Positions 1,860 through 20,678 of a DNA stretch of 22,780 nt are shown one piece after another. How positions within the stretch are numbered: the stretch's first letter is position 1; every line of letters starts with the position of its first letter. Source of the stretch: a virus; the IMG/VR virus record IMGVR_UViG_3300027833_000234, positions 1 to 22,780 of that record. One strand, given 5' to 3'. Position numbers and translations under genes: made by a program. The notes below the pieces were generated by a model, which did not search any database, had not been told where the DNA came from, and was given only the letters and a program-made list of their open reading frames with translations.

Positions 1860-2282
1860 TTATGCGTACAACTGAACATCGGTGTAGTGACTTCTGTGGA
1901 AGTAGTCGGTCATTGAGTCATCGTGGTTGAAGAACTCAGGCCCTTCCATTGCTTCCTTCAGTTCTTTCAAGAACTTCACTCCAGTAGGACAGTAGTTCTC
2001 TTCCAACCAGTAAAGGTTCACATCGTGACCCCACTTCGCAGACTCAGCCATAACTGCTTCGGGAGAGAAGTTGTTGTAACCGTTGAACTCCCTCTTAGCA
2101 ACCTTCTGAGGTGTCATCTGTTCTGCACAGTAACCCTCTAGGACTTGTTTCGCACCTTTGACCTTTGCGACCAAAGTACTGTGATGTCTTACACTCAGAC
2201 TCACTTTGAACCCATACTTCTTGCAGACTTTCTTGACTTCAACAGCAAGGGCTTTCTTTTCTTCTTGAGATACATACGCCAT
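1860..2282 (-). CDS. Phage protein resembling LPD29-type domain
   Basis: 140 residues. The N-terminus (MAYVSQEEKKALAVEVKKVCKKYGFKVSL then VRHHSTLVAKV) resembles a domain found alone in phages and as the 'large polyvalent protein associated domain 29' in mobile-element proteins. The C-terminus also fits (VNLYWLEENYCPTGVKFLKELKEAM, then an FFNHDDSMTDYF segment and YTDVQLY). The pattern is a helix, two strands, then a helix and paired aromatic motifs. The role is not known to me; its distribution in mobile elements would fit an early host-takeover or anti-defence job, which is inference only. It is the first gene behind the promoter at 2314-2342 and has a strong AGAAAGGAAAG ribosome site shared almost base for base with the next gene upstream. 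Confidence 0.7.
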   Translation of the reverse strand: MAYVSQEEKKALAVEVKKVCKKYGFKVSLSVRHHSTLVAKVKGAKQVLEGYCAEQMTPQKVAKREFNGYNNFSPEAVMAESAKWGHDVNLYWLEENYCPTGVKFLKELKEAMEGPEFFNHDDSMTDYFHRSHYTDVQLYA

Positions 2283-2704: not shown

Positions 2705-3622
2705 TTACACAAATTTTACGTTTAATTTGTCTTCCCAGTCGGGATTGAGGTCTGAGTAGGTATATATTTCAAGGGTATTCTCGAAGTCTTGACCACTCTC
2801 TACCATATATCCTAGAGCGATATCCATCATGGGTTCTTCGATTTGGTATATGATATCCAACTTACGTAACCTACGAATACCCCTCAAAAGGAATTTCTCA
2901 TATAGTGGGTAGATTGGGGGTGCAAAGGATAGAGAACTCAGAGTCTTGGCACTCATGAGTGCTGGTAGGATGTTCTTAACAAAAGAATTATGATGGTGAT
3001 ATGACATACCATATCCAGCATGTTTATCTTTATACAGAGACACGTATTCGGTTGTCACATCTAATGTATTTCTATGTGATGACATTCTGTCTTCGAAGGG
3101 GTTCTCTTGTTGACTCCAGAACTTGTCGGTGTACATAAATGCAATATCATCGGGTGTTACTTCCCATGGCTGAATATCGTGGGTGGGCATACCGTTTATC
3201 TCACTTGCAAGTGAATTGCTTAGTTTCACACCTTCGTTTAGTTTGAACAGTTCACTTATAATGTGGAAGTTTGGTAAATGGTGATGTATGTCAGGAACGT
3301 GTCCCACTCTGTTTTGTGGTAAAAACTTCAACTCCTCTTCAGACATTGTTTGGATAAAATCGAGAACAACTGTCTTTTCTAGGGTTGACTTCCATAACTT
3401 CGCATCGTTTGTCCAAAGGGGTAGTCCCAGTTCAAGACACGCAAACACAGAAACAAGTTGTAATACACCATTCTTAGGAATAAGAACTGTTGTTGTCTCA
3501 CCTTTACTAACACCCTTGGATATGAGTAGATGTTTCACTTTGTTGATGGCTTGAAAAAAATCTTCCCTATTCAAACCATCGATTCGAATGTCTTCTCTAA
3601 TTAGGTGTCTATTTAATAACAT
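2705..3622 (-). CDS. Truncated, degenerate adenylate-forming (ANL) paralogue
   Basis: 305 residues from ATG 3622, which lies within the last codons of the SGNH gene (14-base overlap). It is a paralogue of the product of 4402-5637: both open with a LLNR/ILNR start, share an INKxKxLL helix and a FAC-x-ELGL segment, and later share a His-rich loop followed by LPALM. In ANL enzymes (acyl-CoA synthetases, peptide-synthetase adenylation domains) the phosphate loop is a Ser/Thr/Gly-rich motif; here the matching place (about residues 158-172) reads DDIAFMYTDKFWSQQ, with the loop lost. The protein ends just before the YGS-type motif, so the ATP-binding core and the mobile C-terminal domain are missing. 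The frame is intact over 900 bases. Seen: homology and loss. Inferred: a pseudo-enzyme, perhaps a partner or regulator of the complete copy. A decaying gene is the alternative. Confidence 0.75.
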   Translation of the reverse strand: MLLNRHLIREDIRIDGLNREDFFQAINKVKHLLISKGVSKGETTTVLIPKNGVLQLVSVFACLELGLPLWTNDAKLWKSTLEKTVVLDFIQTMSEEELKFLPQNRVGHVPDIHHHLPNFHIISELFKLNEGVKLSNSLASEINGMPTHDIQPWEVTPDDIAFMYTDKFWSQQENPFEDRMSSHRNTLDVTTEYVSLYKDKHAGYGMSYHHHNSFVKNILPALMSAKTLSSLSFAPPIYPLYEKFLLRGIRRLRKLDIIYQIEEPMMDIALGYMVESGQDFENTLEIYTYSDLNPDWEDKLNVKFV

Positions 3623-4424
3623 CTTCAAATACTGTTGTTAAATACTCTGCATACTCTTTATGAGATTGTTCGTCTGTGTGGCCATGTTCTTTCAATGGAC
3701 GGTCTCCTTGTTTGTCCCATAACGTTTCACCATCAACTAATCCAAGTTGACATTCTGGTCGTATGAAAGCAAGGGTATCAAGTACCCAATTTCTCCACTG
3801 AACCACTTGTCCACCGCAGTTGTGTTCGTGTTTTTTGATTCTTTCCATACAGAATTTTAATTGTTTACGTACAAGTGAATGGAAGGTTCCCTGTACAACT
3901 TTAATGTCCATCGCATCACATAACTTCTGTATGGTTGCCTGCATGGTCAATTGATGTGTCAGTGGTGTTCCAAATGTGGAGACGGCCATATCCACGACTC
4001 TTGGAACTCTATCAAAAGAAAGTTTTTTATTATATATTTCGTTTCGAGACCACTTCCTTGCGATTGTAGGACTCATAGAAAGTTCAAGGTCTTCGGCACG
4101 ATTCTCGTGCCATTGGGTCATAGAAATCTGACGTGGAACCTGTGGCAACCGCTCATCACGAACTTCTAATAATTGTTCCTTTCTTAGTGGGTCAGACCAA
4201 AGTATCACTAGGTGTGAGGGTTTCTCTTTAGTTGTCAAATAGGTAATTACATCACGAAATATTTTCTCGTTACAATTACCACACCATGCAAGGTTAGTAT
4301 ATTCAACACCCAGATTGTTTGCAAGTTGATGTGTAAACGTGTGCGGGTAATGTGTCGGTGGTTTGTCCTCATACCCTTCGAGTTCATCGCCCCAGACAAA
4401 ACTACATCCGTTTGTCAATAACAT
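3609..4424 (-). CDS. SGNH/GDSL-family hydrolase or acyltransferase
   Basis: 271 residues from ATG 4424. The blocks of the SGNH superfamily can be followed: block I near the N-terminus is TNGCSFVWGDEL with candidate nucleophile Ser8, block II is CGNCNEKI (Gly49, Asn52), block III is around HLVILWSDP (residues 71-79, Trp in place of the usual GxN Gly), and block V near the C-terminus is HTDEQSHKEYAEYL with His255 as the likely catalytic base. Such enzymes hydrolyse or transfer acyl esters; phage members of this divergent set have no proven substrate that I know. It overlaps an ANL gene at each end (23 and 14 bases), so the three are very likely made together. An ester-forming or ester-removing step on the product of the ANL enzyme is the natural reading, but it is inference. 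Confidence 0.75.
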   Translation of the reverse strand: MLLTNGCSFVWGDELEGYEDKPPTHYPHTFTHQLANNLGVEYTNLAWCGNCNEKIFRDVITYLTTKEKPSHLVILWSDPLRKEQLLEVRDERLPQVPRQISMTQWHENRAEDLELSMSPTIARKWSRNEIYNKKLSFDRVPRVVDMAVSTFGTPLTHQLTMQATIQKLCDAMDIKVVQGTFHSLVRKQLKFCMERIKKHEHNCGGQVVQWRNWVLDTLAFIRPECQLGLVDGETLWDKQGDRPLKEHGHTDEQSHKEYAEYLTTVFEDVIK

Positions 4425-5637
4425 CTAAATATCCTCTCAACTGTTCAAAGTCGATTTTGGTATCGTGAGAAAATGGAGTCATATCAAAATCATCTGGTAC
4501 ACCCATCTCTTTTAGACATACTGGACGATTACTCATTAAAATATATTCACCATCAAACAACTCTATCTTATCGTCCATGTACCTTGGTTCGTTCCAGAAT
4601 GGGGATTCTACCTTCATACGTCCATTCTCAAGGGTTGTCGTATAAAAGTCATCGCATAGTACTCCTAATGAATTAGGAACATGTATTGTATCTTTGTCTA
4701 CACGGTTTATTAATAAGGGGATAGCGGTATCAATACTACCGTAATGTGACTGAAAACAAACATTGTATTCTTTCGCAAGGTCAACAAAGTCTCGGTCTAG
4801 TACGAATCCACACATATTAATGTTTACAGTTCTTTTGAATGGCCCCGCAAAACTCTCTAGAAAATCAAAGAGAACATTCTTATTAGGCATCATAATGTTT
4901 GATGGAGGATTGTCCGCTAAATCTTTCAGACCCTTCAGATAATCGTAATCTTCTTCGTGTGACCCATCATGACCCAGTGCAAAAGAACTATGTGAGTATG
5001 CATTCATAAGTGCGGGTAATAGATGCGTCATGATTGCGGATGCATGATGTAGATTCCTAGAATGAATAACCTTTGCATCATGTCCAAACCAAAATATATC
5101 TATATTACGTTTGGCGATTGCCATTGTTTCTTGGTGTGAAAACAATATTGGTCTAGATGCTTTGGTTGTCCCACTGGTAGAACTTATTAAGAATGTGTCT
5201 TCTGGATATACTAACTCACCTTTGATATTTCTATCTGAGGAATCTTCCATGACATCAATACCAATACCACCGTATCGTTTTATCATCTCATCATGGAGAC
5301 CGTCATAAACCCCAGTAGTATCTTCTTCAGAACTGTAGATATGAAAGTCACTCGGGCCATGGAGTGCAAGTTTAGTAAATGGTAGGGATTCTATTGTTGC
5401 GGGACTATTGAGGATAAAGACTTTCAATCCTAGTTCTGCACATGCAAAGATAGAAGCGATATGTTTTATATCAACTACCATAATACCGATAGTTACTATA
5501 TCACCCTTTCTTGCACCCGCATCCCAGAGTAAATTCTTTATCTTGTTTATTTCTAAACAGACGGTTTTTTTACCGACCTTATCAAATACAAACCCACGTC
5601 CGTGAGAAATTGCGTCACGATTTAATATGTTTTGCAT
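4402..5637 (-). CDS. Adenylate-forming enzyme (ANL superfamily), short form
   Basis: 411 residues from ATG 5637. ANL enzymes activate a carboxylate as an acyl-AMP. The phosphate loop is clear at residues 153-163 (STSGTTKASRP, matching the SSGTTGxPK type), followed by a His-rich LHHAS segment near 196-200 and an adenine-pocket motif HYGSIDT at 298-304 (the YGxTE motif, with Asp for Glu). The C-terminal part is short: FDGEYILMSNRP replaces the usual hinge motif and only about 40 residues follow, so the swinging domain with its catalytic lysine is missing or much reduced. It may adenylate its substrate, but the transfer half of the reaction probably needs another protein. It overlaps the GIY-YIG gene upstream and the SGNH gene downstream by 23 bases each. 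The substrate cannot be read from sequence. Confidence 0.8.
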   Translation of the reverse strand: MQNILNRDAISHGRGFVFDKVGKKTVCLEINKIKNLLWDAGARKGDIVTIGIMVVDIKHIASIFACAELGLKVFILNSPATIESLPFTKLALHGPSDFHIYSSEEDTTGVYDGLHDEMIKRYGGIGIDVMEDSSDRNIKGELVYPEDTFLISSTSGTTKASRPILFSHQETMAIAKRNIDIFWFGHDAKVIHSRNLHHASAIMTHLLPALMNAYSHSSFALGHDGSHEEDYDYLKGLKDLADNPPSNIMMPNKNVLFDFLESFAGPFKRTVNINMCGFVLDRDFVDLAKEYNVCFQSHYGSIDTAIPLLINRVDKDTIHVPNSLGVLCDDFYTTTLENGRMKVESPFWNEPRYMDDKIELFDGEYILMSNRPVCLKEMGVPDDFDMTPFSHDTKIDFEQLRGYLDVIDKRM

Positions 5638-6019
5638 GAATCTTACAACCTATAAATTCATTATAGTATTCATCACTCAACAAAACATCATATTCAAATT
5701 GTAGTTTCGCTTCGTAGTATGAACACTCACCTTTAGTACGACACAGTCTTAGAACAGTTCTCTCGAACTCGTGGCCCCCTTCATACAGGGTTTTTACCTG
5801 TTCGGACGAACCATAGTAGTTCCGCCAGTCGGATTGAACCCGTGTTCTTTTGCGTCTTTTTCTTGTTTTTGTAACAGGGAGTATCTTGGGTTTCCAGAAA
5901 AATTTCTTACCAATATACTTTTTACCAGTACTCAACTCAGTTAAACAGTAGACGAATCCTTGGTATGGTTCCAAGAACTCGTCTTCTGGTTCAAACTCTT
6001 TATCTTCATATATCCACAT
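5615..6019 (-). CDS. GIY-YIG-type phage endonuclease
   Basis: 134 residues from ATG 6019. A GFVYCLTELSTGKKYIGKK segment (residues 21-39) gives the two-strand GIY...YIG core in its phage form (FVY...YIG), followed by a Lys/Arg-rich stretch, WRNYYGSSEQV and an ECSYYEAKLQFEYDVL helix whose glutamate fits the metal-binding Glu of the family. The tail CKIHAKHIK is also shared with a widespread T4-like phage family annotated as putative homing-type or SegE-like endonuclease. These enzymes cut DNA; in phages they act as free-standing homing enzymes or help degrade competing DNA. It follows the zinc-ribbon gene by 19 bases without a clear ribosome site. Confidence 0.8.
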   Translation of the reverse strand: MWIYEDKEFEPEDEFLEPYQGFVYCLTELSTGKKYIGKKFFWKPKILPVTKTRKRRKRTRVQSDWRNYYGSSEQVKTLYEGGHEFERTVLRLCRTKGECSYYEAKLQFEYDVLLSDEYYNEFIGCKIHAKHIKS

Positions 6020-6038: not shown

Positions 6039-6161
6039 TTATGATATCGTAACTCCGCACATAGGACAGTACGATGGTTCTTCTTCCGAATCTTTTACAA
6101 GTACTTCGGTCTCAGTTTCGCAGAGCGCACATTCCAATGTGTAAGTTTCGTCCTCTTCCAC
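6039..6161 (-). CDS. 40-residue zinc-ribbon protein
   Basis: A very short gene starting at a GTG (6161-6159) that shares one base with the nrdB TAG stop (TAGTG). The product has two CxxC knuckles: C11-A-L-C14, then about 17 acidic residues, then C32-P-M-C35-G, the usual rubredoxin/zinc-ribbon pattern. It is strongly acidic and ends ITIS-like (GVTIS). Small zinc ribbons beside nrdB occur in related phages by my recollection; their role is unknown. The paired CxxC motifs, close packing and translational coupling to nrdB make it a real gene despite its size. It could bind nucleic acid or serve as an accessory of the reductase; neither is shown. Confidence 0.8.
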   Translation of the reverse strand: MEEDETYTLECALCETETEVLVKDSEEEPSYCPMCGVTIS

Positions 6162-7150
6162 TAGGCAGCACAACCAGTTCCATCCAAGGAGCACACTTCT
6201 TCTGACCAACCCCAGTCACCTTCCATTCCATTCACGGAATATTCAGTCACACGTTTCTCAAAGAAGTTGTCATGGGACGCACCATTCAGTACCCAGTCCA
6301 ACCACGGTAGTGGATTGTCCTTTACACCGAACTTAGGTTTCATACCCAGTTGTAATAGTCTACGGTCTGCAATGTGACGGATGTATTGTTTCACATCTGT
6401 CTCAGATAGACCTTCGATATCTCCAGACTTATATGCAAGTGTAATGAATCGGTCTTCTAGTTTGACAGCGTTACGTGCCATCTGATAGATTTTAGACTTC
6501 AACTCATCGTTCACAATACGTGGATGTTCAGCCGTAAACTCACGGAATAACTTTGCATTACCTTGTACGTGGATAGTCTCATCTCTGATAGACCACTCTA
6601 CAATCGTACCCATACCTTTCATCTTACCGAAACGTTGGAAGTTCAACAACATTACAAATGATGCGAACAATGACATACCTTCGTTGAATACAGATTGTGC
6701 AAGTACCAGTGCAAGACCTGTTTGGGTGTTAATGTCACCCTCTTTCATAAAGTCAATCTTGTCTGCCATCTCTTTATATTCCATGAACGCAGAATGTTCT
6801 TCGTCTGGTAATCCCAGTGTGTCATTCAACAATGCATATGCACGTTGGTGTACACCTTCACGGTTTGCAAATGAAGACAACATGTTACGAACTTCGTTGT
6901 TCTTAAACTTAGGAATCAATAACTCGTGGTAGTTTTCTCCTACCTGTACGTCACTCTGTGTAAACAGACGTAGTACCTGTGTAATGAACTCTTTCTCTTC
7001 TGCACTCAGTTTGGTTCTCCAGTCTTGAATGTCTTCGGATAGTTCCGCTTCATCTTCGACCCAATGAACCTCTTCATGTTTCTTTGTTAATTCCACCGCC
7101 CAAGGGTAGAGGAAAGGTTTATATGTTTTGCTAAATTCTAATAATGCCAT
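6161..7150 (-). CDS. nrdB: Ribonucleotide reductase class I, beta subunit
   Basis: 329 residues, a normal length for the beta subunit, which holds the di-metal centre and radical that drives reduction of ribonucleoside diphosphates to deoxy forms. The ligand set is complete: Asp67, Glu98 and His101 (REGVHQRAY), Glu157 (FNEGMS), Glu191 and His194 (RDETIH). Tyr105, four residues after His101, sits where E. coli NrdB has the radical Tyr122, so a tyrosyl-radical type is likely. The protein ends CSLDGTGCAA, unlike the usual acidic/aromatic tail that docks on the alpha subunit. It begins 3 bases after the nrdA stop and shares its transcript. Its product supplies dNTPs for phage replication. Confidence 0.96.
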   Translation of the reverse strand: MALLEFSKTYKPFLYPWAVELTKKHEEVHWVEDEAELSEDIQDWRTKLSAEEKEFITQVLRLFTQSDVQVGENYHELLIPKFKNNEVRNMLSSFANREGVHQRAYALLNDTLGLPDEEHSAFMEYKEMADKIDFMKEGDINTQTGLALVLAQSVFNEGMSLFASFVMLLNFQRFGKMKGMGTIVEWSIRDETIHVQGNAKLFREFTAEHPRIVNDELKSKIYQMARNAVKLEDRFITLAYKSGDIEGLSETDVKQYIRHIADRRLLQLGMKPKFGVKDNPLPWLDWVLNGASHDNFFEKRVTEYSVNGMEGDWGWSEEVCSLDGTGCAA

Positions 7151-7153
7151 TTG

Positions 7154-9142
7154 TTATCCCTCGCAAGCACGACATTCATCGTCTTCGTCTGTTTCTATTG
7201 GTTTGTTTAAATATTCCATCAACTCTTCGTACCCACCGACATATTCACCTTCGATGTAAATTTGTGGTACTGTTTTTACTTTACGTCCTGTTACCTCAGC
7301 GGCAGTCTTACCAATTTCTTTCAAGTCAATCTTGTCAAATGGTATTCCTCTTAACTTCAGTTCTTCCATAGCCATAGAACAGAAAGGACAATCTGCTTTA
7401 CTATAAACTATACTACGGGTATCACCCGCAAGTGCAACACGTTCTACCTTTTCAGATACATTCTCTGCACGTTGTTTTGCCTCTGTACGTAAATAGTACA
7501 GACCTTTCAATCCTTCTTTCCATGCCTTCAGATGCACCTTATTCACATAAGATTTCTCTGCACCAGATGGGAAGAATAGATTTACCGACTGACCTTGACA
7601 GATATACTGTTGACGTTCAGCTGCATGGGTAACAACCCAGTTTTGGTCTAATTCATCCGCAGTCCTAAAGATTGCCTTCTCACCTTCAGTAAGGAATGGT
7701 AAGTGTTGTACCGAACCTTTGTTGGTAATGATAGATGTCCAATTAGACTCATTGTTCTCACCCTTCTCATTCAAGAGTCGAGTAAGGTATTTATTCTTTA
7801 CGAGAAATGAACCAGCACGTGTACGATGTGTATATGCATTTGCCTTCAATGGTTCAATAGATGGACTCGTTGATAGAATCACTCCACTGGATGCATTTGG
7901 GGCGATTGCCAACAGATGTGAGTTTCTTCGTCCACTTCCAATGCCGTCAGGATATTCCCCACGTTCTTCAGCAAGTTGTTCAGTTTCTTTAACTGCTTCG
8001 GACTTAATGTGGTCGAACAAGGTTCGGTTGATTTCTCTTGCTGCTTCTGACTCCCATGCGACTCCGTGCCTTTGTAGAAGGGAGTGGAATCCCATTGCTC
8101 CCAGTCCAATACTTCTCTCTCTTTCTGCGGAATATTTTGCACGTGGGATTGTGTCGGGGGCTTCGTTAATGAAATACTCAAGTACGTTATCGAGCATCCT
8201 AACAATATCCCGAACAATAGTTGTATCTTTCCATTCATCGTAGTATTCTAAGTTCAGACTCGACAAACAACACACCGCAGTCCTATCATCGGACGTTGGT
8301 AGGTGGATTTCATTACAGAGGTTCGAACCGTGAATCTTTAGTCCTTTGTCTTTTAATGGTTGAGGTAAACTATCATTTGCAGTATCGATGAAGTTCAGGT
8401 ATGGTTCACCTGTTCTAAAACGAATCTCAAGAATACGTTCCCATAACTTACGTGCGTTAACAGTCTCTTTAACCGTTTCGTCCTTGGGGTCACGTAGGTC
8501 GAAATCACTATTCGACATAACCGCTTCCATAAACTCATCGGTAATATTAATTGCATTGTGTAAGTTTAGTGCTTTACGTTGCACGTCACCTGTAGGAATT
8601 CTCATGTTAATGAATTCTACAATATCTGGATGCGATATATCCATATACGCAGCATAAGAACCTTTACGGGTCTTACCCTGTCTATACGCAATCATGTCTG
8701 CATCAACTGTGTGTAGGAATGGCATAGGGCCAGGCGCAATGTCTGAAACAGTTCTTACGTCAGACCAATGACCACCAACACCACCACCATATACGGATAA
8801 CCACCGTAGTTCTGAAGAGTGTCCAATCAAACCTTCGAGTGTATCTGGTACGTAGGTAAGGAAACAAGAGATTGGCATTCCTTTGCTCTTCTGGTCGTGA
8901 CCATTAGGTGCATTGGATAGAACAGGGGAGGCAAACATGAACCACTTATTTGATACGTAGTTGTACAGACGTTGGGCGAGTTCATCGTCCATCTCATCTC
9001 GGTACTTACTCCATGCTTTACTTGCTCTTGCGAAACCCTCTTGTGGACTTTTTTCATAATCATTTAAATAGAAATCTTTAAGCATACCTACTGCATATTC
9101 TGCTAGTAGACTATCCTTCTTTTTATCAAGTTTGAGGGTCAT
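7154..9142 (-). CDS. nrdA: Ribonucleotide reductase class I, alpha subunit, with fused glutaredoxin
   Basis: 662 residues from ATG 9142. A TTG at 9235 would extend the frame, but it lies upstream of the -10 box of the promoter at 9215-9243, so it is not used from that transcript. Catalytic features: Cys93 (ISCF) and Cys291 (AVCCLSS) as the redox pair, Asn274-Leu-Cys276-Asn-Glu278 as the active-site loop with the thiyl cysteine, and Tyr549-Tyr550 of the radical pathway. The N-terminus goes straight into the catalytic domain, so the ATP-cone for dATP shut-off is absent. A complete glutaredoxin domain occupies residues about 573-646 (redox site CPFC at 585-588, TVP at 624-626, GGYEEL), and the usual C-terminal reducing cysteine pair follows it (ECRAC, 657-660). 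The enzyme thus carries its own reductant. It leads the operon with nrdB. Confidence 0.97.
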   Translation of the reverse strand: MTLKLDKKKDSLLAEYAVGMLKDFYLNDYEKSPQEGFARASKAWSKYRDEMDDELAQRLYNYVSNKWFMFASPVLSNAPNGHDQKSKGMPISCFLTYVPDTLEGLIGHSSELRWLSVYGGGVGGHWSDVRTVSDIAPGPMPFLHTVDADMIAYRQGKTRKGSYAAYMDISHPDIVEFINMRIPTGDVQRKALNLHNAINITDEFMEAVMSNSDFDLRDPKDETVKETVNARKLWERILEIRFRTGEPYLNFIDTANDSLPQPLKDKGLKIHGSNLCNEIHLPTSDDRTAVCCLSSLNLEYYDEWKDTTIVRDIVRMLDNVLEYFINEAPDTIPRAKYSAERERSIGLGAMGFHSLLQRHGVAWESEAAREINRTLFDHIKSEAVKETEQLAEERGEYPDGIGSGRRNSHLLAIAPNASSGVILSTSPSIEPLKANAYTHRTRAGSFLVKNKYLTRLLNEKGENNESNWTSIITNKGSVQHLPFLTEGEKAIFRTADELDQNWVVTHAAERQQYICQGQSVNLFFPSGAEKSYVNKVHLKAWKEGLKGLYYLRTEAKQRAENVSEKVERVALAGDTRSIVYSKADCPFCSMAMEELKLRGIPFDKIDLKEIGKTAAEVTGRKVKTVPQIYIEGEYVGGYEELMEYLNKPIETDEDDECRACEG

Positions 9143-9214
9143 ATTACTTTTCCATAGAGTATAGTTTTTTAGGGGGTAATAGTATCTATAACCCCAGTGT
9201 TTTTCAGTATTGTA

Positions 9215-9243
9215 ATTATACCCCGTCAGGGGCAAAAAGTCAA
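9215..9243 (-). promoter_or_regulatory. Near-consensus sigma70 promoter for nrdA
   Basis: On the minus strand TTGACT (9243-9238) and TATAAT (9220-9215) are separated by 17 bases. The start would be near 9208, giving a leader of about 65 bases before the nrdA ATG at 9142. The spacer holds a small dyad, CCCC-TGAC-GGGG, between the two boxes, where it could serve as an operator or a minor hairpin. This separates the nucleotide-metabolism operon from the late gene just upstream. Confidence 0.85.
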
Positions 9244-10503: not shown

Positions 10504-11904
10504 TTATATGTTTTGCGAGATATCTCTGTACCAAGTTGCACGAAAAATGTTGTGAAACATGCCTTCATATACCGCATATAATTGGTCTTTGTGTGGTGTC
10601 TCACACTCAAAGGCAAACTTGTTCAGTATCTTTCTCTGTATGGGCGAGTCCATAGAGTCACCCAATAGGAAACTCTTAGGTGTTTTAAAGACCTCGTGAT
10701 ATATCCTTCTATCGTTATATAGGGATGCGGTAAGTACATCGTTGTTGGCACTGATAGAACGAGTGTACAACTTAGGTGTCAAGAGTTTTAACATGTTGTG
10801 TTCTGCATTCTCCCAGTCGATGTCCTCAGTGACCCACTCCTCGAACCATTCATCTAGATAGGTCTGTGTGGTCTTGTGTGTACCCAGTGTATAACATGCA
10901 CCATAATGATGCGTCTTCTCATCAATAATATTTTGAATTGCAGCTTCTATATACCTCTCACCCTTATGTTCTACCAATAACATGTGTAGGTGTGGAATCA
11001 AATCACGGAAGAACATCTCATCTCCGTTAACTCCATACATAACAATATCAGGTTTTATCTTACAATCCATTACCTGTTTCATTGTGGGTATAATAGATGC
11101 CCATCTGGTAGACCCATCTTTTAAATACTGTAGTGTGTGTTCGATTGCTTTGTTGGTATCAAAGGTTTCGAATGACACGTCAGGAAACTTTGCAGCCTGA
11201 ATCTGTTTATATTTTAACCCATCATCTCCCGCATGGCAAGGTAACATTGTATAACAATACTGTGGGTCATGGTAGAAGTACTGCGATTGAACTGCGGAGT
11301 CGATTCCCTCACTCAAAGAGATAAACCTGTTTTTATAACGAGACCTAATTAGATTGGAGTGTTGAGTCATACATTGGTGTATGTAATCAGTAAGTGCATC
11401 GATGTCAGTCCACTTATCTTCCTCAAGTGCTTTCTTACAATCACCCACGTAGTCGTAGGATGGAATGAATGAGTTGATATGGTCAAAGAATGTTGTGTTC
11501 TCCTCCACACCAAACTCACGAGACTGTGGGTCTTTCTGACCATACTCCAAGTAGGTCTTGGTGATATCTGACTTATGACACGTCATATATGGCACGTAAT
11601 TGGATATCTCTGTACCGTACTTACGTGCAAGGAATATCTTATGGTTCTGGAAGTAGTCAACCGATATCTCAAAACTGTCTTTGGTCAGTTTGATTGCAAA
11701 GAAGTTTCCATTCTCTTCATTGAAACTCCAACGTTCACATACATCTTCGATGTCACCTTCAATAAGGTAACCAGAATATACGACAATATAGTCTGGCCCT
11801 TTCCAGACATTCACCAGTTCGTCATGGTAATAACACCATTGACCATACTGTGTGTATTCACGTTTCTTGAACTTCGTAGGGTCTTTGCAAATAAAGAATC
11901 TCAT
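10504..11904 (-). CDS. Asparagine-synthetase-like ATP-pyrophosphatase
   Basis: 466 residues from ATG 11904 in an ATGA junction with the upstream Cys-rich gene. The C-terminal two-thirds is the asparagine-synthetase (AsnB) synthase domain: the pyrophosphate loop SLSEGIDS at 196-203 (canonical SGGxDS with one Gly changed to Glu) and GVNGDEMFF at 291-299 (the GxGGDExF type). The N-terminal 100 residues keep the shape of the glutaminase half (GNFFAIKLTKDS, then KIFLARKYG) but lack the catalytic Cys at position 2. It therefore probably cannot take ammonia from glutamine, as in beta-lactam synthetase and lasso-peptide cyclases, which use the same fold to adenylate a carboxylate and close an amide or ring. 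Substrate unknown. It closes a three-gene overlapping set with two CxxCxxCC proteins. Confidence 0.82.
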   Translation of the reverse strand: MRFFICKDPTKFKKREYTQYGQWCYYHDELVNVWKGPDYIVVYSGYLIEGDIEDVCERWSFNEENGNFFAIKLTKDSFEISVDYFQNHKIFLARKYGTEISNYVPYMTCHKSDITKTYLEYGQKDPQSREFGVEENTTFFDHINSFIPSYDYVGDCKKALEEDKWTDIDALTDYIHQCMTQHSNLIRSRYKNRFISLSEGIDSAVQSQYFYHDPQYCYTMLPCHAGDDGLKYKQIQAAKFPDVSFETFDTNKAIEHTLQYLKDGSTRWASIIPTMKQVMDCKIKPDIVMYGVNGDEMFFRDLIPHLHMLLVEHKGERYIEAAIQNIIDEKTHHYGACYTLGTHKTTQTYLDEWFEEWVTEDIDWENAEHNMLKLLTPKLYTRSISANNDVLTASLYNDRRIYHEVFKTPKSFLLGDSMDSPIQRKILNKFAFECETPHKDQLYAVYEGMFHNIFRATWYRDISQNI

Positions 11905-12359
11905 CGTAGTCTTAGTGTTCCCTGTTTGGTGTGTAACTCTACCTGTAGTTGTCTACCTTCACTTACAAGTATCTCTTCAACCAGTTCATCCAGTTTTCGT
12001 TTGTTGTTATCATATTGAATCTCTGGTGGTAATGTCTTGTCCATTGACAGGATACCAACCTTACCGTTCCACTTCTGTACATGTGCAACAAAACCAAAGT
12101 TCTTTGGTCTATATTTATCTTCTAAGTCGTGTTCAATATAGGAACAAAAGAACTCATCACATATTCTTGGTTTGTCTTCTTGAATAGAACAACCCGTATC
12201 ACATAGTTTATTACAGGTACTCCACGCACCGTAATCTACACCATAGAACTCTGCTTCATTATATCTGTCTGCATCCTTCCATGCACCAGTATAACCCATG
12301 ATTTCACAACAGACAGTACAGTCACCACAACGTGATTCTGTAGGGATAATCTCAGACAT
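11901..12359 (-). CDS. CxxCxxCC metal-binding protein, paralogue B
   Basis: 152 residues from ATG 12359, overlapping the end of paralogue A by 8 bases. The N-terminal CxxCxxCC motif (CGDCTVCC, Cys11, 14, 17, 18) is followed by CNKLCDTGCSIQEDKPRICDEFFCSY. This is the layout of the YkgJ/UPF0153-type 'putative zinc- or iron-chelating' family, where a second cluster ending in 'Y/x-x-x-RPxxCRxF' completes the metal site. The rest is a strand-rich domain with a DKTLPPEIQYDNNKRKLDELVEEIL helix. Members are thought to bind Zn or Fe-S; some act with modifying enzymes. It is coupled to the asparagine-synthetase-like gene by an ATGA overlap. Reaction and partners are not known. Confidence 0.82.
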   Translation of the reverse strand: MSEIIPTESRCGDCTVCCEIMGYTGAWKDADRYNEAEFYGVDYGAWSTCNKLCDTGCSIQEDKPRICDEFFCSYIEHDLEDKYRPKNFGFVAHVQKWNGKVGILSMDKTLPPEIQYDNNKRKLDELVEEILVSEGRQLQVELHTKQGTLRLR

Positions 12360-12807
12360 AAAAACGTTGTTCTCCAGCTGCGGTACATACCCTAACCATA
12401 GGCACGCTAACCGACCACATTTCTTCTGCGGTCTCTTTCATAGTTATAATGTTTGTATAGTTATCTTGGAAGAATTGTTCTGAGGTAAATTTATGTTTCA
12501 GAGATTCATTGGGAGTCACATCTAGATAATGAACATTTTTATGTGTTCGTAGGTTAGTAACAAACCCAACTCTTTCGGGAATATATTCTTCGGGTAAATC
12601 AGATTCTACATAGACACACTCGTAATCAGAACAAGACTGCGGTTTGGTATCATATATAGTGCATCGATTATTATCACAGAGTTTATTACATCTACCCCAT
12701 TCATATCGGATATCTAAATTGATTAGTTGTATCTGATTATTATTGAGAGCTCCAAAAGACTTACAACAAGAATAACAGTCACCGCATCGGTCAATCTGTT
12801 GTTCCAT
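12352..12807 (-). CDS. CxxCxxCC metal-binding protein, paralogue A
   Basis: 151 residues from ATG 12807, one base overlapping the stop of the upstream gene (TAATG). It has the same cysteine plan as its downstream neighbour: CGDCYSCC (Cys8, 11, 14, 15), then CNKLCDNNRCTIYDTKPQSCSDYECVY, and both share a GFV...K/R strand in the second half. The tandem pair arose by duplication within this locus or its ancestor; the two have since diverged strongly outside the cysteine blocks. Ten cysteines in all, nine placed in the two cluster blocks, suggest a multi-Cys metal site. Function unassigned; YkgJ-type family membership is by motif. Confidence 0.82.
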   Translation of the reverse strand: MEQQIDRCGDCYSCCKSFGALNNNQIQLINLDIRYEWGRCNKLCDNNRCTIYDTKPQSCSDYECVYVESDLPEEYIPERVGFVTNLRTHKNVHYLDVTPNESLKHKFTSEQFFQDNYTNIITMKETAEEMWSVSVPMVRVCTAAGEQRFYV

Positions 12808-13578: not shown

Positions 13579-13839
13579 TTAATGTGAGAATCCGACTGCA
13601 ACACCAAGTACACCAGCATTTGCAGCGAATATTTTATCGGTAGGTGCTTTCTTCAGTACTTCTGTTGCACCAGCCGCCAAAGTAAAAGTACCGATATCAG
13701 TACCTCCAGCTTGTTCTAGAGTCACTAGGTGAGCAGCAGTATGAGTATTAATCAACCTTACTGCGGATGCACTACCAAAATTAGATGCAGCACCACTAGT
13801 GGTGCCACATGCAGCTTGAGTTCCTTGTAATACTATCAT
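13579..13839 (-). CDS. Small beta-rich virion-type protein
   Basis: 86 residues. I take ATG 13839, which shares one base with the upstream TAA (TAATG), rather than an in-frame TTG two codons earlier. The composition is rich in Gly, Ala, Thr and Ser, with strands such as AVRLINTHTAAHLVTLEQ and GTFTLAAGATEVLKKAPTDKIFA, as seen in small decoration or adaptor proteins of marine phages. It has no membrane segment or signal peptide. The N-terminal MIVLQGT and C-terminal GVAVGFSH are typical of a compact single-domain structural protein. The exact role is not readable from sequence. Confidence 0.7.
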   Translation of the reverse strand: MIVLQGTQAACGTTSGAASNFGSASAVRLINTHTAAHLVTLEQAGGTDIGTFTLAAGATEVLKKAPTDKIFAANAGVLGVAVGFSH

Positions 13840-14909
13840 TAGCAATCACCTTTTTCTGCTTTAACGTAACCACGTCTTTTTGCCATACGTTCTAAAAACT
13901 TCTTAGCGTCTTTAGTACGTGCATCATGAGGATTCTTTGGTTTATCAGCCTGCATATCCGCAATCTCGGATACAGTCTTACCGTTAATAATGTCTTGTGC
14001 CTGTGCGACAACTTCTTCCGCAGTCTCTTCCTTGACTTCAGTTGACTTAACAATGTTCTTGTCACCAGCGGCATTATCTACAGGACGTTTACCAGAGTTT
14101 GCTTTGGTTCCACCTTCAGCACTCTTAGACTTCTTCTTGGCATCTTCTACATTGTCTTCGATATCTTTCTCAGACTTATCATGAGAGTTGTCAAATTCTT
14201 TAGCTTTAGGTGACTGTTTAGAATCAATCTCTTCACCTTTATCAGTAACACCTTTAACACTTTTCTTTGCGGCACTTTCCCACATCTTGAGTAGGTCAGT
14301 AGTTGCATCAGTCAAGTCGATGTCTTCACCAATCTTAGAGATTTCAGCAGTCTTGGCATTAGATGCAACTTTCTTCTTGTCATCTTTCTTACCAGCAACT
14401 TTAGGTTTTTCTTTATCTTCTTCGTCTTCAGACTCTTCTTCACCCTTGTCTTCGTCATCCTTTTCTTCACCATCTTTCTTAGGTGGGAAAGGCTTCTTCT
14501 TTTTAGGTTCGTCAGACTCTTCTTCGTCTTCTTCTTTCTTGACGTTCTTAGCAGGTTTCTTACCACCGTCAATTGCATCGTCAGTAGCCGCACGTTTCTT
14601 GTGCAGATACTCATCTGAAGAATCTACATCTCCATCGTTATCGATGTCTTTGTCTTTGCGGTCTTTGAATTTCTTATCGTTTGCTTTGTCATCGACAGGG
14701 TCAAGTTTAGATTTCTCTGCGAGAGTCCAACCTTTCTTGAGGTATTCTTTCTCTTTTGACTTATCGATTACGATTGTCTTTCCATTCTTGGCGACCATAG
14801 AGTCTTTCTTAGGGTCTTTCATTTGTCTAGCTTCGTCAATTTCTAACGACTCGCCTAGGATGACTTGGTTGTAGGCATCCATTAATGACTTCATATCTTT
14901 TGTTCGCAT
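13839..14909 (-). CDS. Low-complexity charged head/core protein with Ca-loop motif
   Basis: 356 residues from ATG 14909 with a strong AGGAG ribosome site. The N-terminus (MRTKDMKSLMDAYNQVILGE) ends in a hydrophobic-Gly-Glu that could be a prohead-protease site. Residues 86-100 read DKDIDNDGDVDSSDE, a clear EF-hand/dockerin-type loop (Asp88, Asp90, Asp92, Gly93, Asp99). The middle is a long run of Lys, Asp and Glu. The C-terminal part is helical: EETAEEVVAQAQDIINGKT, then AKKFLERMAKRRGYVKAE. This fits a prohead-core or scaffold-type protein of T4-like phages, which are acidic/basic, processed and partly expelled. It is in the late block between the coiled-coil gene and the small structural genes. 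Confidence 0.75.
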   Translation of the reverse strand: MRTKDMKSLMDAYNQVILGESLEIDEARQMKDPKKDSMVAKNGKTIVIDKSKEKEYLKKGWTLAEKSKLDPVDDKANDKKFKDRKDKDIDNDGDVDSSDEYLHKKRAATDDAIDGGKKPAKNVKKEEDEEESDEPKKKKPFPPKKDGEEKDDEDKGEEESEDEEDKEKPKVAGKKDDKKKVASNAKTAEISKIGEDIDLTDATTDLLKMWESAAKKSVKGVTDKGEEIDSKQSPKAKEFDNSHDKSEKDIEDNVEDAKKKSKSAEGGTKANSGKRPVDNAAGDKNIVKSTEVKEETAEEVVAQAQDIINGKTVSEIADMQADKPKNPHDARTKDAKKFLERMAKRRGYVKAEKGDC

Positions 14910-15250: not shown

Positions 15251-15940
15251 TTAAGTAATTATAGTGTTATTTATAAGACTTCTATTCTTGAGTCTATAAC
15301 TTTCTATCTTATTTTGCCAGTTACTTGGTATCTTCATACCCAGATATTCACTGACTCTCTTTAATTCTGTCTTGGTATCTTCCTTGTTATTAAAAAATAA
15401 CTCACAAGGGTCAACTAATAACATGGAATGTTCTATGGGTATTGTATCCATCCACATCGCAAACATCTCTGCCTGTGATTCCCACGGTCTATTCCAAAAC
15501 TGGTCATGAGCAAGAATACCATCCTTAATCATGTTCATACCAGCTTCTCTGTCCTCATCCCTAACTAACTTACACTTTGCAAGTTGTTGAGTATAATCCA
15601 GACTTTCTCTGGTTTTTGAGAGGAACACAATAGTCTTCGTCTCATCCCAATCGTTCCAACAATACTCTGTCCAGAACTCTTGATTGATTGGAAATCCATA
15701 CCCGTGGTCTAGTCTAACATTCCACAAGTCTTTATTCCATTCTGGTTTCTGAACTTCTCTAGGATTCCCTCTGGTCACTTCTATTTCATGTGACTGGTAA
15801 TCTTCTCTCTTCAAAAACCATCTTTCTATGACGGGGTTGTTTATTAATTCTTTGGTTGCAATCTCTTCAAGTTCTTGTAAGAGTCCACCAAAAAATTCAC
15901 CACCAGCCCCACCACGATAAATTACATTAAGTACCTTCAT
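15251..15940 (-). CDS. Sulfotransferase-like P-loop protein
   Basis: 229 residues from ATG 15940; a GTG at 15967 would overlap the cupin gene by 41 bases and add residues unlike the family. The N-terminus MKVLNVIYRGGAGGEFFGGLL has the glycine-rich loop after a strand that in sulfotransferases binds the phosphosulfate donor. The C-terminal part (MLLVDPCELFFNN, then LKRVSEYLGMKIPSNWQNKIESYRLKN) matches the 'strand, D-P/y, then L..xLG' end of that fold. Such proteins are frequent in marine phages and have no proven acceptor; capsid or cell-surface glycans are the usual guess. It overlaps the cupin gene by 14 bases. The late promoter of the next gene lies inside its 3' end. Confidence 0.7.
   Translation of the reverse strand: MKVLNVIYRGGAGGEFFGGLLQELEEIATKELINNPVIERWFLKREDYQSHEIEVTRGNPREVQKPEWNKDLWNVRLDHGYGFPINQEFWTEYCWNDWDETKTIVFLSKTRESLDYTQQLAKCKLVRDEDREAGMNMIKDGILAHDQFWNRPWESQAEMFAMWMDTIPIEHSMLLVDPCELFFNNKEDTKTELKRVSEYLGMKIPSNWQNKIESYRLKNRSLINNTIIT
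15268..15275 (-). promoter_or_regulatory. T4-type late promoter TATAAATA
   Basis: Perfect octamer on the minus strand, inside the 3' end of the sulfotransferase-like gene. Transcription would begin near 15262, leaving a leader of about 30 bases before ATG 15233, the usual layout for a late gene. It would drive the structural run 14919-15233 to 13215-13562. Confidence 0.75.
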
Positions 15941-16181
15941 ATATTCTAATAACCAAATCACCTTCACCTTTTATTACACGGTGATATTCCATCTTATCAA
16001 TACTATAACTATGTCCTTCTAATAAGTCCATAGGATGTTCATTGTCTATCTGTAGTTGCCACCCATATCCTTCCATGACATGGATACTTCTGTCTTTAGT
16101 ATCTCTATGCCAAATCAAGTCTTCCTCTTTGACATCCTCTCTAAAAACCCTTATCTTACCATTACGAACCTTCAGTTCCAT
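15927..16181 (-). CDS. Small cupin-like protein
   Basis: 84 residues from ATG 16181, preceded by GGTGA at good spacing; an upstream TTG at 16196 has no support. The protein is nearly all short strands. RVFREDVKEEDLIWHRD, then RSIHVMEGYGWQLQIDN and SYSIDKMEYHRVIKGEGDLVIRIYE give a single cupin barrel with candidate metal ligands His25, His34, Glu37 and His67. Similar small cupins occur in T4-like marine phages. Function unknown; a metal-dependent or sugar-binding role is possible. It lies between the DUF5872-type gene (8-base gap) and the sulfotransferase-like gene (overlap), in a set that could act on the virion surface. Confidence 0.75.
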   Translation of the reverse strand: MELKVRNGKIRVFREDVKEEDLIWHRDTKDRSIHVMEGYGWQLQIDNEHPMDLLEGHSYSIDKMEYHRVIKGEGDLVIRIYEGT

Positions 16182-16705: not shown

Positions 16706-16915
16706 TTAACCAAACTTTGCTGCGAATTTTTTCAATGGAAGAGTTTCAAATGAACCAAATTGGTCTTCAACTCTATACGATAATTTACCACCCATGATTA
16801 CGGGTTTTGCATTATATAGTTTACCGTCCTTTCCTTTTATATTCGATACTTCAGAACCGTAAATAGACAGTCCCTTCATCTTCTTTGCTTCCATAAACTG
16901 TGATAAGTCTTTCAT
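16706..16915 (-). CDS. Small protein with capsid-targeting-like N-terminus
   Basis: 69 residues from ATG 16915. The N-terminus MKDLSQFMEA has a short amphipathic leader ending in Phe-Met-Glu9, like the other putative internal proteins here. The rest is strand-rich (GLSIYGSEVSNIKGKDGKLYNAKPVIMGGKLSYRVEDQFGSFETLPLKKFAAKFG) and looks like one small beta domain. I do not recognise a family. It starts in an ATGA-type overlap with the 425-residue gene and ends 3 bases before the DUF5872-type gene. A packaged or head-core role follows from its place and leader only. Confidence 0.65.
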   Translation of the reverse strand: MKDLSQFMEAKKMKGLSIYGSEVSNIKGKDGKLYNAKPVIMGGKLSYRVEDQFGSFETLPLKKFAAKFG

Positions 16916-18189
16916 CGTCCTAACCTTTTTAAAAGTGCCTGAATACCTTTCAGGTCTTTTGATATTACTTTCTGAAACTTTTGTTTGTCCTGTGGTTTCT
17001 TCAACATGTCAAACAATTTAGAAACCTTCTTTGCGTCATCCTGTGAAATCTTACCCTTCTTACCGCTGTCAGGGAACTCAATAGTACCACCTTTAGGTAG
17101 GTCAGATGCTTTACGGATTTGCATCAGAACATTTTTAGATGCCGCCTTGCGGTCATCGTCTGTTGCATCTGTATCTATATCCGCATTATCTTTACCTCTT
17201 TTAGGCATGGCAGCCATTGCGTCACGTTTTGCACGAGCATTCTCTACGACAAAGTCTTCCCTCTTCATGAGTTTCATTGCAGCGTTAGCGAGTTGGGTGA
17301 CTTTCATCTTGTCCATCTTTGCCTTGTTACCGTCATTTACCTTATCGTAAATCTGAGAGATGGCAGATGCAGTGAACAAGTCAACCATGACACCTTGGAT
17401 TTTCTTTGCCTGTTTCTTGGCAACAATGTCTTTGACATCGGAGATTACAGACTCGTCTAGTTGTACACTCTCAATGTACATATTCAACTCATATCGTTTG
17501 TTGTCTAGGTTTGCAACCTGTACATGAAGTTTCTGTTTCTTGTTGGTATCTAGGATATACTTATTGGTCTTACCACTGGATGGTCTCTTGGGCCCCATTG
17601 CCACCTTGTGGTCAACATCGTCTTTGTCTACGATGAAACCTTTCTTCTTTGCGTGTGCGTATGCGTGTTGCATTGCACCAGAGAAGTCACGGTGATAGAG
17701 TTCGTAACCAGACGAGGACTTTGCTTCTTCTAGTTCAACCGACTCGTTTGCCTTCTTCATTGCCTTTGAAACAGCATCAGGTTTTTTGCGTTTAACCATT
17801 GCAACAAACTTTTGTAAAAGACTTTTATCTTCCTTACTAGGTTTGAATCCTTTCTTTGCAGATTTTGTCTTCAACTGTTTTAGGTCATCTGCCATTGCTT
17901 TTCCTGCCATGACATAAAAGGGTGCAAGTGCGAGAAGCATTGAACCAAAGATTGCGGTTGACACATCTTCTTTGATTTCTGGTTTCTCGTGGGTGTAACC
18001 CATCTTCTTCATACGTTCATGGTCTTCAGGTTTCTCTGCCTTATATTCTTTCCCAGTCTTGGGGTCATACATCATATGAGGTTCGAAGTCACTTTCCGCA
18101 ACGGGAGCTTTCTTCTTCTTCAGTGCCATGTATTCAGCCTTAGACATCTTAGGGCCACCATATTCCAATAATTCTTGTATTGTTTTCAT
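16912..18189 (-). CDS. Large phage head/core protein
   Basis: 425 residues from ATG 18189, sharing one base with the upstream stop (TAATG). The leader MKTIQELLEY ends in Leu-Leu-Glu9, an ideal T4-type prohead-protease site; VELEE and VQLDES offer more. A Lys-rich region, a hydrophobic stretch (STAIFGSMLLALAPFYVMAGKAM, about residues 82-104) and a conserved phage domain (SSSGYELYHRDFSGAMQHAYAHAKKKGF, then KYILDTNKKQKLHVQVANLDNKRYELNMYIE) follow. The C-terminal third, with a DIDTDATDDDRKAASKNVLMQIRKASDLPKGG segment, ends in a basic helix. The central domain recurs in structural genes of related phages by my recollection. The likely role is an internal or prohead protein; the biochemical role is unknown. 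Confidence 0.7.
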   Translation of the reverse strand: MKTIQELLEYGGPKMSKAEYMALKKKKAPVAESDFEPHMMYDPKTGKEYKAEKPEDHERMKKMGYTHEKPEIKEDVSTAIFGSMLLALAPFYVMAGKAMADDLKQLKTKSAKKGFKPSKEDKSLLQKFVAMVKRKKPDAVSKAMKKANESVELEEAKSSSGYELYHRDFSGAMQHAYAHAKKKGFIVDKDDVDHKVAMGPKRPSSGKTNKYILDTNKKQKLHVQVANLDNKRYELNMYIESVQLDESVISDVKDIVAKKQAKKIQGVMVDLFTASAISQIYDKVNDGNKAKMDKMKVTQLANAAMKLMKREDFVVENARAKRDAMAAMPKRGKDNADIDTDATDDDRKAASKNVLMQIRKASDLPKGGTIEFPDSGKKGKISQDDAKKVSKLFDMLKKPQDKQKFQKVISKDLKGIQALLKRLGR

Positions 18190-18431
18190 TACGCTAAATC
18201 CTTATCGTGGTTCAACCCACCTTTTTTCTTCTTTACTATGAAGGCATTAACACGAGCATATCCCCACTGTTGAGGGGTAGTGCCTGGCCTGTGGCCAGTC
18301 TTCCATGCGGCAACGCCACGATTATAAACTTTTCTTAATGTATCTACAGAGATACCAGACTTCTTTGACTTATCTGCAAGAGCACCCTCAACGAGTTGTC
18401 CCGCACGTTTGGTTAGTGCCATTCTAATCAT
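18189..18431 (-). CDS. DUF5824-type phage protein
   Basis: 80 residues from ATG 18431 in an ATGA junction; ATG 18422 (MALTKRAG) is an alternative and matches the usual family start. The sequence ALTKRAGQLVEGALADKSKKSGISVDTLRKVYNRGVAAWKTGHRPGTTPQQWGYARVNAFI is a strongly conserved domain (DUF5824) found singly and inside larger head proteins of many tailed phages. It is helical, rich in Lys and Arg and ends in a Gly/Asp tail. A role in DNA binding or head assembly is likely from charge and position; not proven. It sits between two genes for putative internal proteins. Confidence 0.85.
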   Translation of the reverse strand: MIRMALTKRAGQLVEGALADKSKKSGISVDTLRKVYNRGVAAWKTGHRPGTTPQQWGYARVNAFIVKKKKGGLNHDKDLA

Positions 18432-20302: not shown

Positions 20303-20678
20303 TTTTCTTTCCACCTCGTTTTTTCTCCAGTTCTGCTTTACGAACTTTGGGGAGAAGTTTCTTTGCGAGTTTCTGTATTTTGGGTTTCATTTTCTCTAGA
20401 CGTTTTTCGATTGACTGTCTACGAGCCATGGACAAATCGCCTTTATCGGCACCCTTAGTGATTTTCTTAAAGAATGTCATACGTGCTTGCTTCATTGCAC
20501 GTAACTTAATTTTTTCTGGGGATGCAATTTTACGTGCCGCACGTTTGCGACCCATTGCAATTTTTGCTTTATTTTTCTTAAAGGTACGAGCCATCTTCAG
20601 ACGTTGCTGCATATTTAATGCTTCGTCAGGAGATTCACACACCTTTATAAATTCTTTTAGTCCCATTGGTTTGGACAT
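20295..20678 (-). CDS. Very basic head-core protein
   Basis: 127 residues from ATG 20678 with an AGAGG ribosome site formed at the end of the upstream gene. After a short leader (MSKPMGLKEFIKVCES) the protein is almost all helix and lysine/arginine: ALNMQQRLKMARTFKKNKAKI, RKRAARKIASPEKIKLRAMKQARMTFFKKITKG, then SIEKRLEKMKPKIQKLAKKLLPKVRK. I recall this family from T4-like marine phages, next to the adenylyltransferase-like gene. Such charge fits DNA condensation or scaffold-core packing in the head. No enzymatic motif is visible. The gene overlaps the next start by 8 bases. Confidence 0.8.
   Translation of the reverse strand: MSKPMGLKEFIKVCESPDEALNMQQRLKMARTFKKNKAKIAMGRKRAARKIASPEKIKLRAMKQARMTFFKKITKGADKGDLSMARRQSIEKRLEKMKPKIQKLAKKLLPKVRKAELEKKRGGKKSD

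Follow-up and report, generated by a model that had tools for sequence, protein, structure and literature searches.

An Acore-only ANL protein and its degenerate partner at a variable locus of marine T4-like phages

We analyse the 22,780-base virus record IMGVR_UViG_3300027833_000234, here called the window, which comes from a marine T4-like phage. Among named phages, the nearest by nrdA protein identity are Phage C48C1, at 78.5%, and the Methylophilales phages Melnitz, at 66%, and both are classified as Kyanoviridae. Positions 2705-5637 are filled exactly by three minus-strand open reading frames, which encode, in order of transcription, a protein related to the ANL superfamily of adenylate-forming enzymes (ANLa), a protein with an SGNH fold, and a second, degenerate ANL protein (ANLb). 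The core unit of the locus, which occurs in a group of uncultured marine phages, is the pair formed by ANLa, the candidate catalyst, and the degenerate ANLb. Around this pair lie exchangeable partners, namely the SGNH protein, a desaturase-like protein, a methyltransferase, a carbamoyltransferase and a PP-loop enzyme. The novelty is the combination of an ANL protein reduced to its N-terminal domain (Acore) with a degenerate partner.

The three genes and the pairing of ANLa with ANLb

The genes of the window are the following.

4402..5637, minus strand: ANLa, ANL N-terminal domain (Acore) only, candidate catalyst; 411 amino acids, ATG start (evidence: fold, motifs, pN/pS)
5149..5184, minus strand: phosphate loop (core motif A3) SSTSGTTKASRP, residues 152-163 of ANLa
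3609..4424, minus strand: SGNH-fold protein, optional module; 271 amino acids, ATG start (evidence: model, homologue alignment)
2705..3622, minus strand: ANLb, degenerate ANL; 305 amino acids from the ATG, 307 from a TTG start at 3628 (evidence: alignments, tree, pN/pS)

The overlaps of 23 and 14 bases given in a preliminary description of this DNA, made from the sequence alone, are exact: ANLa and SGNH share 4402-4424, and SGNH and ANLb share 3609-3622 when ANLb is counted from its ATG. That start is best taken as the likely one because the orthologue in contig L091 starts at the matching position. All three frames are kept in orthologues, with pN/pS ratios of 0.20-0.35 for ANLa, 0.37-0.47 for SGNH and 0.28-0.60 for ANLb, which indicates that all three are under purifying selection. 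Amino-acid-changing differences are far fewer than silent ones, and therefore these are working genes, ANLb included.

The window ANLa scores 20.3 bits against Pfam AMP-binding, below the cut-off of 29.9, and several of its orthologues exceed that cut-off. Its AlphaFold model (pLDDT 59.5, pTM 0.69) matches 573 PDB chains in Foldseek at E<=1e-3, with MatB best at 2.2e-13, and superposes on 1v26 with Z 25.0 over 345 residues (rmsd 4.0). The closest folds are ANL enzymes without exception. Among 24 distinct orthologue sequences, the phosphate loop SSTSGTT is invariant (24/24), and HSRNLHHA, YG[ST]ID and PRY.[DE]D vary little or not at all. The adenylate-forming fold with a phosphate loop that had been proposed for this protein is thus borne out. 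By eye, YG[ST]ID (A5-like, compare YGxTE) and PRY.[DE]D (A7-like, compare the TGD-like motif) fall at matching places. The orthologues end in DTK...EQLRG: the protein terminates after the hinge region, without the Asub domain, motifs A8-A10 or the A10 lysine. Distant copies in L187-L192 extend to a GR hinge-like motif and end shortly after it. In adenylation domains, motifs A1-A7 lie in Acore, and A8-A10 together with two switching lysines lie in Asub; the A10 lysine stabilises the adenylation half reaction (PMC11253843). We file ANLa as an Acore-only ANL relative and not as a standard two-domain ANL enzyme.

Compared with the ANL superfamily at large (acyl-CoA ligases, nonribosomal peptide synthetase adenylation domains, luciferase, the N-terminal-domain structures of FadD13/FACL13, and MatB), ANLa shares the Acore fold (Z 24-25), the phosphate loop and, with A5 and A7 assigned by eye, the order of motifs A1-A7, but it stops at the hinge naturally, with no A8-A10 domain, has YG[ST]ID in place of YGxTE and a conserved DTK...EQLRG(Y/H)L tail, and is phage-encoded with a degenerate partner. 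Its best sequence matches in NCBIfam and the PDB, all of them weak, include fatty-acyl ligases (FadD at E 5.5e-6; FadD13 is also matched). PDB sequence searches with single window proteins gave nothing useful, and the best PHROGs match for ANLa reaches only E 0.12. ANLa also resembles the fatty acyl-AMP ligases, ANL enzymes that form acyl-AMP and may act with desaturases, as in jamaicamide synthesis (review PMC11837247). Those enzymes possess a C-terminal domain and work with a cognate carrier protein, and neither was found with ANLa: a free-standing AMP-binding_C domain (PF13193) is absent from 14 related contigs of up to 149 kb, and a carrier protein (PF00550, PP-binding) from 12 related, possibly incomplete contigs, with control genomes positive in both searches.

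Only the N-terminal half of ANLb can be recognised as ANL, and its homology is to the N-terminal half of ANLa. It has no phosphate loop and ends before motif A5, so that motifs A5-A10 are all missing. An ANLb profile matches adenylation domains over positions 13-66 (E 0.002), and PHROGs holds no match for it. This agrees with the earlier view of the third protein as ANL-like and truncated, and the swinging C-terminal domain is missing from both ANL proteins, also as had been noted. Some contigs encode ANLb as a fusion with a methyltransferase domain (L018, PF13578, E 2e-4). A second degenerate ANL subfamily occurs in L039, in L074 and as a second copy in L174.

We gathered relatives from viral contigs, which are fragments, and mapped all of their genes. 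The position of ANLa is constant, beside nrdB and a segE-like gene. The surroundings in the window are as follows.

5615..6019, minus strand: segE-like GIY-YIG endonuclease gene (Pfam PF19835, 6.9e-33), constant upstream neighbour in related loci
6161..7150, minus strand: nrdB, ribonucleotide reductase small subunit (Pfam PF00268, 4e-73), fixed locus anchor
7154..9235, minus strand: nrdA (Pfam PF02867, PF00317) with a C-terminal glutaredoxin domain (PF00462, 2e-12), fixed locus anchor
2326-2637 and 1860-2282, minus strand: two small genes (PHROG 7799 and 10415, unknown function), kept across relatives, downstream border of the variable stretch

ANLa overlaps the segE-like gene by 23 bases (5615-5637). 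The segE-like gene of L208 (8775-9347; Phage C48C1, 76852-77346) is publicly annotated as NAD synthetase.

When the 39 contigs with ANLa beside nrdB-segE are scanned with an ANLb profile, 34 prove to encode a protein of the ANLb type (E 1e-58 or better), which lies at one of three sites. The non-adjacent site lies about 8.5 kb upstream of ANLa, where ANLb and a desaturase-like gene share 14 bases (in L209, 3403-4143 and 4130-5110). In the five contigs without ANLb, the sequence upstream of ANLa is shorter than about 5.6 kb and therefore does not reach this site. ANLb is found in every relative in which all its known sites are visible. In a tree, ANLb proteins group in a single clade whichever of the three sites they come from (support 99/99), though the branches are long. 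The desaturase-like gene matches acyl-CoA desaturases weakly (E 0.008). Its product is 29-32% identical to proteins of phages, and one of these proteins matches Pfam FA_desaturase at 3.6e-16. The arrangements are these.

ANLa-SGNH-ANLb: window, L105, L107, L125-L132
ANLa-SGNH: L097-L104, L106 (L098-L104 have ANLb about 8.5 kb off, beside the desaturase-like gene)
ANLa-ANLb: L112, L120-L124
ANLb-ANLa-SGNH: L109, L111, L113, L114
ANLb-ANLa: L133; also L110, with a gene-sized gap between segE and ANLb
ANLa with neither SGNH nor an adjacent ANLb: L115-L119

A search for the three-gene order in other phages, which the preliminary description had suggested, finds that order in L105, L107 and L125-L132 besides the window and other arrangements elsewhere. 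The proposal that the three genes make up one dedicated system is not supported, as the same genes occur in other combinations among relatives, which is the kind of outcome that the description itself had named as counting against it.

The SGNH protein as an exchangeable module

The second protein has the SGNH fold that had been suggested for it. Its model (pLDDT 86.1, pTM 0.85) superposes on TesA 4jgg with Z 14.8 over 159 residues (rmsd 2.6) and on E. coli TesA with Z 14.5, which places this acyl-CoA thioesterase among the best structural matches. The catalytic blocks were assigned from sequence, without inspection of coordinates. Ser8 (block I) and His249 (block V) are present in 40/40 homologues. 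With SGNH/GDSL hydrolases such as TesA and the CE2 esterases, the protein shares the fold, the GCS block with Ser8, block II (N44-G49) and His249, but the GxND of block III is replaced by an invariant Trp76-Ser77, and there is no conserved aspartate three residues before His249, position 246 of the DxxH motif varying among E, P, K and D. That the protein acts as a hydrolase or transferase is plausible, though not assured. Ser8 comes right after the first core strand, and therefore there is no room for a signal peptide. PHROGs has no match for this protein, and a PDB search with its profile gave nothing useful.

In contig L112, the alignment to the window runs up to 4416 and resumes at 3622, so that the SGNH gene alone is missing. 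The same 9-base sequence lies at both junctions.

4417..4425, minus strand: left repeat GATGTTATT, in the ANLa/SGNH overlap
3615..3623, minus strand: right repeat GATGTTATT, in the SGNH/ANLb overlap

GATGTTATT occurs twice because SGNH and ANLb each begin with ATGTTATT inside an overlap. The flanking 9-mer would allow clean gain and loss of the SGNH gene through short-homology recombination. SGNH is also missing, with ANLa intact, in L115-L121, L123, L124 and L133. Between the window and L098 the identity is 91% for ANLa and 45% for SGNH, and therefore the two have been exchanged separately. We considered SGNH as an essential member of the system and rejected this, as L112 lacks exactly that gene.

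In this material, the SGNH family is nearly confined to phage contigs. Among the genome contigs searched, a single convincing relative was found (32% identity), in the metagenome-assembled genome contig L149, which is itself probably viral because its neighbours match those of phage loci. Most SGNH relatives, often in tandem pairs, lie behind a 2-oxoglutarate-Fe(II) (2OG-Fe(II)) oxygenase-like gene and close to a helicase gene, a recA-like gene and thyX. No Pfam hit underlies the labels oxygenase, recA-like and thyX, which were given from gene position and sequence motifs. In L039, L040, L074 and L138, an ANL protein of about 480 residues without a phosphate loop is close to SGNH relatives, a second association of the two families.

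In Dlt D-alanylation, DltA is an ANL enzyme and DltD has an SGNH-like fold, and we take the Dlt operon to be the closest known combination of the two. The likeness is that an ANL enzyme and an SGNH-fold protein are encoded together. The differences are that no DltC-like carrier was found in the carrier search above, that no DltB-like acyltransferase is seen at the locus, and that the window SGNH protein has neither membrane anchor nor signal peptide. Identity with the Dlt system was rejected, as carrier and membrane anchor are missing.

Other lineages and neighbouring genes

Further genes appear around ANLa relatives in other lineages. L187-L190 have a PP-loop enzyme weakly similar to QueC between segE and the ANLa relative, with a match below threshold (E 4e-4, 20.4 against 22 bits). 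The following are examples.

L187:6393-6998 and L190:6388-7008: PP-loop ATPase with a QueC-like zinc site, between segE and ANLa

L174 has an ANLa relative with a NodU-like carbamoyltransferase. In L200-L205 two twitch-domain radical SAM proteins (NF033640, E 2e-108) are encoded next to a full-length ANL. In L200, L202, L203 and L205 the order is the full-length ANL, a small membrane-like protein, and then the tandem radical SAM pair, a cluster that looks like phage small-molecule or peptide maturation. L205 also has carbamoyltransferase, SGNH-like and sulfotransferase-like genes before the full-length ANL, the latter two recognised by eye, with no Pfam match. Three relatives of the window phage (L213, L214, L215) have genes for CsgG-like lipoproteins, curlin-like repeat proteins and a fatty acid desaturase (in L213, PF00487, 3.6e-16).

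Elsewhere in the window, an asparagine-synthase-like PP-loop protein (10504-11904, minus strand; LSEGIDS motif; no Pfam or PHROGs match) overlaps genes for two paralogous CxxCxxCC-type proteins (11901-12359 and 12352-12807, minus strand), and this group is at the same place in many relatives. A protein at 15251-15967 (minus strand) is sulfotransferase-like by eye (GGAGGEFFGGLL), without Pfam or PHROG match. Minus-strand proteins at 20682-21905, 18428-20314, 20295-20678, 16912-18189 and 13839-14909 begin with short N-terminal segments such as MEFKNFITEQ or DFKSYLTEE. One of them is nucleotidyltransferase-like (PF01467, just under the cut-off), and another contains DUF6267 and a KWDGAPA motif like that of ligases. 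Such segments resemble the capsid-targeting peptides of T4, and by this analogy these proteins may be packaged in the head.

Interpretation of the locus

The reading we prefer, to which we give somewhat less than an even chance, is that of a phage acyl-activating ANLa with a non-catalytic ANLb partner that feeds a variable tailoring step. From its motifs, ANLa would convert ATP and a carboxylic acid to acyl-AMP. ANLb, probably bound to ANLa, would help hold or release the acyl-AMP, replacing the missing swinging domain. A phage-specific tailoring enzyme of the exchangeable stretch would then transfer the acyl group to an acceptor, or remove it; in the window this enzyme would be the cytosolic SGNH-fold protein, as acyl transferase or esterase. 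The likeliest substrate may be a fatty-acyl or similar hydrophobic acid, favoured by three hints that are each weak alone: a neighbouring desaturase-like gene, similarity to FadD and the resemblance of the SGNH fold to TesA. To call the locus an acylation system is an interpretation on our part. A more specific form, a two-protein adenylate-forming enzyme in which an Acore-only ANL and an obligate pseudo-ANL make a fixed core for varied phage transfer enzymes, is possible but rather doubtful.

Several observations weigh against the preferred reading. ANLa has no A10 lysine, and therefore adenylation may be weak or partner-dependent. The confidence of the ANLa model is only moderate. Many of the 39 contigs are near-identical (24 distinct ANLa sequences), and therefore the count of 34/39 overstates independence. 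In other lineages, G021 and G022 have ANLa without ANLb or SGNH in contigs of 74-91 kb. The fatty-acyl guess depends on weak similarity and on a neighbour seen in one clade.

Four alternatives compete with the acyl-activating pair. A single dedicated acylation or deacylation system of all three proteins, in which SGNH is a required transferase or hydrolase, would explain the shared overlapping gene order in the window, L105/L107 and L125-L132, and the proximity of ANL and SGNH genes in another lineage (L039, L040, L074, L138), where the position differs and the ANL gene belongs to another subfamily. We consider it unlikely, given the contigs with intact ANLa that lack SGNH, the separate exchange of SGNH and ANLa, and the large SGNH family without ANL, usually by a 2OG-Fe(II) oxygenase-like gene. 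A hypervariable tailoring island would add acyl, carbamoyl, methyl or sulfo groups, according to the phage, to a glycan or lipid of the cell surface, for instance to block further infection. It is suggested by the carbamoyltransferases of L174 and L205, the methyltransferase-ANLb fusion of L018, a glycosyltransferase-8-like gene downstream, the sulfotransferase-like and SGNH-like genes of L205 (by eye), and, in phage C48C1, genes for a sugar epimerase and a UDP-glucose dehydrogenase close to SGNH. It too seems improbable to us: the locus is fixed by nrdAB and segE and not in a glycan cluster, neither carrier protein nor membrane acyltransferase is seen with the ANL pair, and ANLa is constant while its partners vary.

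In a nucleotide or DNA modification, the activated acid would be attached to a base. The locus adjoins ribonucleotide reductase, L187-L190 have the weakly QueC-like enzyme, and in other lineages SGNH keeps company with a helicase, thyX and the oxygenase-like gene. Yet the window has no known hypermodification gene set, the QueC match is sub-threshold, and QueD/QueE are not seen nearby, which leaves this explanation quite remote. We give as little weight to the idea that the ANL proteins are past catalysis and act as binding or scaffold proteins. The missing A8-A10 domain and A10 lysine in both proteins, the missing phosphate loop of ANLb and the existence of a second degenerate ANL subfamily agree with it, but the invariant or nearly invariant motifs of the 24 ANLa sequences fit retained ATP binding.

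No description of the locus was found in the literature, and neither "acyl-CoA" nor "AMP-binding" occurs in two papers that deal with marine myophages related to this one (PMC7029224, PMC9004378). Among 50,697 phage records there is no ANL of the types queried and one distant SGNH only. Domain alternation, in which the C-terminal domain swings, is regarded as a central feature of ANL catalysis. A natural, conserved ANL family that lacks this domain and always comes with a degenerate copy would make it directly testable whether a second protein can substitute for the swinging domain. If the acyl-activating pair is real, common marine phages would carry an acyl-activation pathway at a locus where tailoring enzymes are swapped.

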